Shown: piece after piece, positions 16,041 to 18,176 of the stretch
How the letters are laid out: the number at the start of each line of letters is the position of its first letter
Numbering within the stretch: position 1 is the stretch's first letter
Origin: a virus
Length of the DNA stretch: 20,570 nucleotides
Strand: one strand, 5' to 3'
IMG/VR virus record: IMGVR_UViG_3300044705_000157
Coordinates: 1-20,570 of that record
Program-made: the position numbers and the translations under genes
Notes under the pieces: model-generated
Seen by the model: the letters and a program-made list of their open reading frames with translations, nothing else
Databases searched by the model: none
Told to the model about the DNA's origin: nothing

Positions 16041-18176
16041 TTGGCTGTTTTAAACGCTAAGGAATTAACTCAGGTCATGCCGAACCTTAGCGAGAAAGAC
16101 GCCAACTTCTACCTACCCTACCTGGTTGCTGCTGTTATCGAATTTGATATCACCACTCGAGGAAGACTTGCCGCATTCCTTGGAATCGGGGCCTACGAAA
16201 CAGGCGAACTCTCACAGTTCGTAGAGATTGGAGCTGACAACCAGCCCTATGCACCCTACATCGGGAGAGGCTTCTTTCAGCTTACCTGGAAAGCTGGCTA
16301 CGCTGCTTGTGGTCAATATTTTGGGGAAGATTTCATAACCAATCCAGCTCTCGTAGCTAAACCGGAGTGGGCGTTTAGAACAGCCGCCTGGTTCTTTAGA
16401 TACGGCAATGGAGACCAGGCAATATTCGCTGACAAAGGGGATTTTTGGAGCTGCTACATTCGAACAGCCGGAGGAGATAACGGCACCTATCCCCAGCGTA
16501 GGCAATATTACCTACGAGCGCTTTCAGTACTACCGCCAACCATAAAGGAGGATGCCAGGGTGGTAACAGGGCAAGATATCGTGAAAAGTTGCTACAAGCT
16601 GAAGGGAGCACCCTACCGGACGTGGACAGCCGGAGCGCCATTGCCCATGTGGCTTAACGATGGCCGGGGCGATCCACCGCCAGCGAGTTGGTTGCTGCAA
16701 GCTGGAGTGATGTGTCTCCCCGGAGACACGATAGTGCAGGCGTCACATGTGAATAGGGCCTATAAGCGGGTCTATAGTGGTGAGCTCGTCACTATCAAGA
16801 CAGCCAGCGGAAACAAGCTCTCCGCAACTCCGAATCACCCGATACTGACTAACCGAGGTTGGTTGGCCATCAAGAGTCTCAGAAAGGGCGATCGTGTAGT
16901 TGACTGCGCCAATACTGGGCAGCTCTTTGAGCCTGGGCCTAATCCAGACCACGAGTACGAACCAACCCATATCGAGCAGATCTATGAGCTTTGCGCGAAA
17001 CGCGGTTCTGCCGAGCGGATTGGAGTCGTACCTCTCGACTTCCACGGCGATGGGCGGCATGGCTATGTCGATGTTGTATTTCCACACCGCGAGCTGCGGG
17101 ACGGGGTTATATCCGCGCTCTCTGAGCAGCGTCGTCAACTCCTCTTCGCCAATGCCAACCTTATCGAGTTCTCGCTGGTGAGAAATGGCGCGACTAATGA
17201 GATAACGCTCCGAGCGCGATCTTCCTCTAGACCACTCGTTAGCCGAACGCGTAATAGCTTTCCGTTCTTCGGAGGTCATTCGGCTGTAGCGCAGCCTGCC
17301 AGCCTCAGAGTTGCTCCTAAGGACTCCGCGCTCCCTGAGTCGCGTATTGATAACTATCGTAGAGACCCCGAAAGCTTTAGCGATCTCGCGCGTTGTTTGT
17401 CCGGCGAGGTATTGGCGAACGATCTCATCAACATCGAGATCCAGTCGGAGAGGGTGAGGCTGCAAGGCTCTTTGTTCGGCGGCACTACGAATGTAGATGC
17501 CAGCTTCACGCAGGCGCTTAAGAATCGTGGATATGTTGACGCCGAGCCTTTTGGCGATGGAGACCGCTGCCTCTCCAGCGGTATAGGACTGGACAATGTC
17601 ATCCAAGTCGAGAGCCACGCGTTTTCCGGCCACGTTTATAACCTCCAAACGAATGCAGGCCAGTACATTGCCAATGGCATTGTAACACACAATTGCGCAG
17701 ACCTAATTTCCTGGGCAATGATGGATAACGGATTGGAGACGGTTTATGGCACTGAAGCTTTTGAGGATTTCCTTGTCGATATTCAAGATTTTGATCCTAG
17801 TGCTCCAGGTGTTCCGGGTGCTATAGCCTACGATCCCTACATAAGCGCCGCCGTAGGCAGCCAGGGGCACATTGCTTGCTACGTTAATGATGCAGTAATT
17901 ATTCAGGCCCTTGCTGGTACTCCTCCCTACTACGGGGTAACTGATGAGTTCACCGATGCTGAAACTTATTCGTGGGGAGGCGACACTTTATTTACTCGCT
18001 ATGGTTTTCTTCCGGGCGTGGACTACTCGAGCACATCTACTACTCCCATCGTTATTCCTCCTAAGTGGATTGCTATAAATCACGAAGGAATGCTGGTTGC
18101 CAACGGCAAAGACTACTCCGGCGGCTGGTATGACACCGGCTGGAGCAAGGGAGATTGGAGCTTTCATGGATCCTAA
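16041..18176 (+). CDS. Endolysin precursor: GH19-like + NlpC/P60-like, interrupted by an intein
   Basis: A 711-residue precursor starting at TTG with GAGAGG six to eight bases upstream. Residues about 20-160 resemble GH19 chitinase/lysozyme domains: AAFLGIGAYETGELSQFVE (Glu53 and Glu62 candidate acids), YIGRGFFQLTW, NPALVAKPEWAFRTAAWFF. Residues about 178-224 plus 552-660 form an NlpC/P60-like peptidase: CADLISWAMMDNG (Cys552 nucleophile) and GHIACYV (His610). Residues 225-551 are the intein. Splicing would give 384 residues and restore the peptidase active site. The protein would cleave both glycan and peptide bonds of peptidoglycan. The end overlaps the holin start by 11 nt. Confidence 0.85.
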   Translation: MAVLNAKELTQVMPNLSEKDANFYLPYLVAAVIEFDITTRGRLAAFLGIGAYETGELSQFVEIGADNQPYAPYIGRGFFQLTWKAGYAACGQYFGEDFITNPALVAKPEWAFRTAAWFFRYGNGDQAIFADKGDFWSCYIRTAGGDNGTYPQRRQYYLRALSVLPPTIKEDARVVTGQDIVKSCYKLKGAPYRTWTAGAPLPMWLNDGRGDPPPASWLLQAGVMCLPGDTIVQASHVNRAYKRVYSGELVTIKTASGNKLSATPNHPILTNRGWLAIKSLRKGDRVVDCANTGQLFEPGPNPDHEYEPTHIEQIYELCAKRGSAERIGVVPLDFHGDGRHGYVDVVFPHRELRDGVISALSEQRRQLLFANANLIEFSLVRNGATNEITLRARSSSRPLVSRTRNSFPFFGGHSAVAQPASLRVAPKDSALPESRIDNYRRDPESFSDLARCLSGEVLANDLINIEIQSERVRLQGSLFGGTTNVDASFTQALKNRGYVDAEPFGDGDRCLSSGIGLDNVIQVESHAFSGHVYNLQTNAGQYIANGIVTHNCADLISWAMMDNGLETVYGTEAFEDFLVDIQDFDPSAPGVPGAIAYDPYISAAVGSQGHIACYVNDAVIIQALAGTPPYYGVTDEFTDAETYSWGGDTLFTRYGFLPGVDYSSTSTTPIVIPPKWIAINHEGMLVANGKDYSGGWYDTGWSKGDWSFHGS
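16743..17633 (-). CDS. Putative homing endonuclease (HTH + Vsr/DUF559-like) encoded antisense within the intein
   Basis: A 296-residue protein from GTG 17633, with GGAGG (17646-17642) eight bases upstream; a longer ORF starts 19 codons earlier without a site. Residues 9-49 and 67-107 are two repeated helix-turn-helix units (LDDIVQSY...SIAKRLGV; VDEIVRQY...EIAKAFGV), the DNA-binding part. Residues about 150-230 resemble the Vsr/DUF559 PD-(D/E)xK nuclease fold: EEELTTLLRERGYNPVPQL, YNIDIAMPPIAVEVE (Asp189, Glu198, Glu200) and LLDMGWFVLVVWI. Residues 231-296 form an unclassified tail opposite intein blocks A and B. The gene lies wholly inside the intein and its codons face the sense codons in register. 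Homing function is inferred from domains and location. Confidence 0.78.
   Translation of the reverse strand: MAGKRVALDLDDIVQSYTAGEAAVSIAKRLGVNISTILKRLREAGIYIRSAAEQRALQPHPLRLDLDVDEIVRQYLAGQTTREIAKAFGVSTIVINTRLRERGVLRSNSEAGRLRYSRMTSEERKAITRSANEWSRGRSRSERYLISRAISHQRELDKVGIGEEELTTLLRERGYNPVPQLAVWKYNIDIAMPPIAVEVERYDSNPLGRTAFRAKLIDLLDMGWFVLVVWIRPRLKELPSIGAVNYTIALSETLDGQPTSVSQYRVIRSCGELVSAGCLDSDELTTIDPLIGPIHM
17642..17646 (-). promoter_or_regulatory. Ribosome binding site of the antisense nuclease gene
   Basis: GGAGG on the minus strand, eight bases before GTG 17633. The complementary plus-strand bases fall in the Asn-Leu codons of the intein's conserved VYNLQT block, so the site is embedded in splicing-essential sequence. 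It decides the start codon over an upstream GTG at 17690. Confidence 0.75.

Follow-up and report, generated by a model that had tools for sequence, protein, structure and literature searches.

Inteins are thought to be mobile by virtue of an endonuclease domain carried in frame, as in the PI-MtuI RecA intein, and those without such a domain are usually called mini-inteins or degenerate. Fractured split inteins, reportedly described by Dassa et al. in 2009, are said to be served by a separate EDxHD/Vsr-like homing endonuclease gene. The TerL inteins of mycobacteriophages are further examples of the in-frame kind, and a survey of mycobacteriophage inteins describes LAGLIDADG domains in frame (PMC5050341). 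I-Bth0305I, represented in the PDB by 3r3p, is a homing endonuclease of the EDxHD type from a phage group I intron (PMC3943268). Antisense homing endonuclease genes are known from group I introns of nuclear rDNA (PMC9548176). No published description of an antisense endonuclease in an intein was found in the open-access literature, and an earlier report elsewhere is possible.

The locus analyzed here lies in a window of 20,570 bases, a virus record from IMG/VR, and very probably holds a mobile intein whose splicing function and homing nuclease are written on opposite strands of one segment. It resembles in-frame mobile inteins in its splicing blocks, its conserved phage gene sites, its polymorphic presence, and its associated endonuclease, but they carry the nuclease as a domain within the intein protein, whereas here it is a separate protein encoded on the opposite strand and the sense middle is mostly spacer. 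With fractured split inteins it shares a related nuclease superfamily and a nuclease separate from the intein protein; those systems reportedly consist of two genes with the nuclease gene between them, whereas here a continuous intein open reading frame (ORF) overlaps the nuclease gene. The rDNA group I introns are likewise mobile elements with a homing nuclease gene on the antisense strand, but that gene occupies a peripheral segment of an RNA intron and overlaps no other protein frame, whereas here one segment encodes two proteins. The novelty lies in the two-strand architecture, splicing and homing each being a known function.

The host gene (16041..18176, plus strand) is a single open frame encoding an endolysin with a GH19/phrog_181-like N-terminal part, interrupted by an intein of 327 amino acids (16713..17693, plus strand) that runs from CLPGDT to IVTHN and is followed by a C-extein beginning with CAD. 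Sequence and alignment give Cys1 (in CLPGDT), block B TPNHP (16827-16841), block F GHVYNL (17628-17645), and block G IVTHN followed by Cys; the intein therefore has the first Cys/Ser, the block B TxxH, the block F, and the C-terminal (H/S)N followed by Cys/Ser/Thr by which inteins are recognized. The N-terminal splicing region with blocks A and B occupies 16713..16910 (plus strand), as also indicated by selection on the sense frame, and the C-terminal region with blocks F and G occupies 17574..17693 (plus strand), as indicated by alignment, selection, and the model of the sense product. Pfam Intein_splicing (PF14890) matches the window intein with 46.6 bits against a curated cut-off of 35.8, and a PDB profile search recovered the solved KlbA and RecA inteins. 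The original prediction of a complete plus-strand intein with all splicing blocks and no nuclease motif in its middle thus agrees with these matches and with the Pfam scan of the sense frame, which covered 37 inteins and in every one gave the splicing domain alone, with no nuclease domain and thus no LAGLIDADG domain between blocks B and F. In the predicted structure of the sense product, pLDDT exceeds 90 at the two ends (residues 1-66 and 288-327), confidence is moderate at about residues 81-130, and pLDDT falls below 50 across most of residues 145-287; the best structural matches are intein splicing domains. The model suggests that the splicing ends fold and that most of the middle is an unstructured spacer.

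On the minus strand, an ORF in codon-aligned phase with the sense frame is open from a GTG at 17690 to a stop at 16743. The supported start is the GTG at 17633-17631, which lies 8 nt past a GGAGG Shine-Dalgarno sequence (17646-17642, minus strand) placed opposite the block F Asn-Leu-Gln codons; a promoter scan around the start found no promoter-like site near it. The resulting gene (16743..17633, minus strand) encodes 296 amino acids plus a stop. Two HTH domains at residues ~10-101 (17331..17606, minus strand) are identified by Pfam HTH families and by the structure model, and a nuclease core at residues ~161-235 (16929..17153, minus strand), with E163, Y186, N187, D189, E198, and K215, is identified by profile comparison with 3r3p and 3hrl, residue counts, and the model. 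A family profile built from 102 members matches 3r3p, the nuclease domain of I-Bth0305I, with E = 9.1e-6 and the DUF559-like nuclease 3hrl with E = 1.5e-5, a structural counterpart being one of the checks proposed with the original prediction; the match to Vsr is weak (0.32), and a tandem HTH protein is also matched. At E <= 0.01, MTES_1575 is matched by 58 and DUF559 by 17 of the 102 members. The predicted structure has a mean pLDDT of 91.6 and shows two HTH domains followed by a helical linker and a nuclease core of alpha/beta type, while a fold search with the whole model gave weak matches (I-Bth0305I, probability 0.80, E = 0.28), perhaps because the protein is multidomain.

Two residues of the core, D189 and E198, are invariant in the family (102/102 each), and E163 is present in 95/102. 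Of the EDxHD signature, the leading Asp is thus kept in all members and the leading Glu in nearly all, but the trailing His and Asp are absent from the window protein: the His position holds N205 (His in 58/102 members), and the last Asp is replaced by Arg or Lys in the family profile alignment. Because these trailing residues are missing, the protein is named EDxHD-like rather than a strict member. The catalytic domain of I-Bth0305I is homologous by profile, but that enzyme is intron-borne, has a different DNA-binding part, and differs from the antisense protein, which lacks the second half of the signature. Homology thus points to a protein of two HTH domains and a putative EDxHD/Vsr/DUF559-like nuclease domain, in line with the original prediction of a 296-residue minus-strand product with its own GGAGG, two HTH repeats, and a Vsr/DUF559-like nuclease domain.

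The arrangement recurs among relatives. Searches by tblastn with either product recover a mostly shared set of phage records, in which the two products match opposite strands, from phages of Gordonia, Salmonella, Shigella, Escherichia, Klebsiella, and Edwardsiella, and further from Vibrio, Idiomarinaceae, Pseudomonas, Aggregatibacter, and Mycobacterium phages; a search of phages with the intein at the DNA level gave no match. Each of the first twenty inteins examined, ranging from 42% to 68% GC, is covered in this same phase by a long antisense ORF. For the IMG/VR scans, the full family alignment was too divergent to serve as a query and closer sub-alignments were used; loci L002 and L022, which share HTH similarity only, were left out of the membership. 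At 154 of the 161 loci found through the nuclease, a single ORF running opposite to it contains both the N- and the C-blocks of the intein, and at none do they lie on the same strand, so that a continuous intein, as in the window, is the rule and not a split intein with its halves in separate genes. The antisense ORF spans >85% of the intein length in 114/119 distinct inteins. Since these loci had been found through the nuclease, a second IMG/VR search was made with the N-terminal splicing block alone (the first 66 sense residues), which found at least 579 relatives, and the antisense nuclease is present in 80/80 of the best loci among them. Among 58 distinct inteins found in this way, the antisense frame is open in 55 and the sense frame is broken in none. 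In three loci (L183, L191, and L228), the sense frame is intact and the antisense frame is shortened or interrupted, as would be expected if homing nucleases are lost once the element has become fixed.

Long codon-aligned antisense frames are often held by GC-rich genes, and the antisense ORF is in exactly this artefact-prone phase; chance openness is not negligible in some GC-rich relatives (P = 0.1 for L014 and P = 0.05 for L003). A coding-phase artefact is nevertheless hardly credible as an explanation, as the two-strand arrangement persists in distinct inteins down to 36-45% GC and the encoded protein has conserved folds and catalytic-type residues. For the window intein alone, the chance of an open antisense frame is ~1e-5 given the host gene's own codon usage. 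Across the 119 distinct inteins, the codons TTA, CTA, and TCA, which would place a stop in the antisense frame, occur once in the sense middle against 678 expected from extein codon usage; together with the window value, this argues that the antisense ORF is real and far above chance.

Selection on the two frames can be separated, since in the codon-aligned phase antisense position 1 lies opposite sense position 3 and the second position is common to both. In a comparison of 20 disjoint pairs, the N block differs at 244/95/369 sense positions 1/2/3, the middle at 1307/473/898, and the C block at 130/55/199, so that the wobble position switches from the sense frame in the splicing blocks to the antisense frame in the middle (Fisher p = 7e-24, to be taken as indicative because strict independence does not hold for the sites or for some of the pairs). 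Among 1173 middle codons with a single change, 741 changes are silent in the antisense frame and 318 in the sense frame, an order that is reversed in the splicing blocks, and in the last 20 sense codons, past the antisense start, sense constraint is almost pure. Variation of the middle at antisense wobble positions, together with the depletion of forbidden codons, refutes the chance-ORF reading. The overlap is a clean and experimentally accessible one, in which two genes on opposite strands use the same codons and selection on both frames can be measured. The original proposal that splicing and mobility are split over the two strands is accordingly supported by the conserved opposite-strand layout and by selection on both strands, the conservation of the antisense ORF and its purifying selection having been, with the structural match, the computational checks proposed for it, none of which refuted it.

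The translation signals of the antisense gene are embedded in the splicing block F. In 95/119 inteins a distance of exactly 60 nt separates the antisense start from the intein 3' end. The start codon is complementary to the histidine codon of block F, and the Shine-Dalgarno GAGG to the Asn/Asp-Leu codons of the same block. Codon choice at these sites is skewed: the block F His codon is CAT in 80 and CAC in 15 cases, against 137 CAT and 236 CAC in the exteins (p = 3e-17), and the Leu codon is CTC in 80/105 (p = 2e-25). A similar overlap occurs at the nuclease core, where the sense motif DFHGDG (17037..17054, plus strand; sense residues 109-114 in the relatives) places FHGD opposite antisense IAVE (residues 195-198), including the catalytic-type Glu198. 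The antisense codons here are almost fixed (Ala196 GCC 92/95, Val197 GTG 86/87, and Glu198 GAA 82/101), whereas those of Tyr186, Asn187, and Asp189 show no bias; because the near-fixed codons preserve the sense FHGD, this short stretch looks constrained in both directions.

Constraint on FHGD past the needs of the antisense strand, together with the moderate predicted structure at sense residues 80-123, could be taken to mean that the sense middle is itself functional, an unrecognized in-frame endonuclease of which the antisense similarity is a shadow. This is very improbable and was rejected, given that sense residues 145-287 are predicted to be unfolded, that most changes in the middle alter the sense product, and that Pfam shows a splicing domain only in each of the inteins scanned.

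A second, independent case of the same design occurs in the Gordonia phages Lennon, Sitar, Nordenberg, Thing3, Barsten, and SchottB, which hold a different intein at the MuF capsid-gene site that in other Gordonia phages is occupied by the EDxHD-like type. Its antisense frame encodes a LAGLIDADG-like protein with the motif YVAAFIDGEGTVTV (in Lennon, locus L164, 1992-2582, minus strand, with a counterpart in Barsten, locus L169), an assignment that is based on the motif and on a modest match to I-MsoI (E = 1.3e-3); Pfam gave no match for this protein, and an IMG/VR search with the Lennon protein found no relatives. Between Lennon and Barsten, the intein middle differs at 45/6/11 sense positions 1/2/3, and 39 of 47 single-change middle codons are silent in the antisense frame and 5 in the sense frame. 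The Lennon/Barsten case indicates that more than one nuclease family occurs in the antisense design. It is likely that these elements form a large class of bidirectional phage inteins, with splicing and homing on opposite strands, a start and Shine-Dalgarno sequence in block F, and dual-constrained active-site codons, and that the design has had two or more origins, involving nucleases that are unrelated (EDxHD-like and LAGLIDADG-like).

Evidence of mobility comes from intein-free alleles. In Gordonia phages such as Jabberwocky, the MuF gene aligns without a gap across the precise junction that is occupied by the intein in Vivi2, Angelicage, and Fosterous, the flanks being 93-95% identical, and intein-free MuF genes are common among related Salmonella phages, so that precise-junction alleles are present for relatives in both groups; a search of phages and IMG/VR found no empty allele of the window endolysin. 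Read from the exteins, MuF head morphogenesis genes are the commonest hosts among the relatives, and others look like a terminase (L031 and L048) or a deaminase-like protein (L006) on direct reading of the sequence rather than by family search. In the N-extein of L052, the apparent end of another intein (VEKYHNFAVNGIFVHNS) lies upstream of the antisense-type intein.

These features suggest how the element could work. The sense strand would encode a self-splicing intein, both ends of which would fold and splice, keeping the host protein functional, while the antisense strand would encode a homing endonuclease with HTH and EDxHD/Vsr-like parts, translated on its own from a start and Shine-Dalgarno sequence that are hidden in block F. 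This nuclease may have a cleavage specificity for intein-free host alleles, here of the endolysin and most often of the MuF head morphogenesis gene, and repair after the cut would copy the whole segment, so that intein and nuclease would move together. Separate translation could also free expression of the nuclease from that of late structural or lysis genes, which raises the question of how phages time antisense expression against the late host gene.

The antisense protein might be real and yet serve mainly in another role, either attacking co-infecting phages as a competition nuclease or regulating the host gene through its HTH domains. Its HTH repeats are compatible with such a role, cleavage being attributed to it by homology, and in Acinetobacter phage P1068 a free-standing nuclease homologue (L020, 1330-2223, plus strand) is convergent with an adjacent, uninterrupted MuF gene, a layout that could serve exclusion. 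This role is unlikely to be the main one, however, as the catalytic-type core is kept in every aligned member, the gene lies inside inteins nearly everywhere, and the inteins show insertion polymorphism at precise sites. Homing and the cutting of intein-free rivals begin with the same biochemical act, and exclusion may be an added role of a homing nuclease rather than an alternative to it. The P1068 homologue could possibly represent an intermediate or a donor.

The group is widespread, but its nuclease sits in a place that annotation pipelines pass over, and an annotated antisense gene is a rare exception. Several Salmonella and Escherichia phage records include the intein in products named head protein or ADP-ribosyltransferase, and the phrog_15127 family profile also includes the intein.
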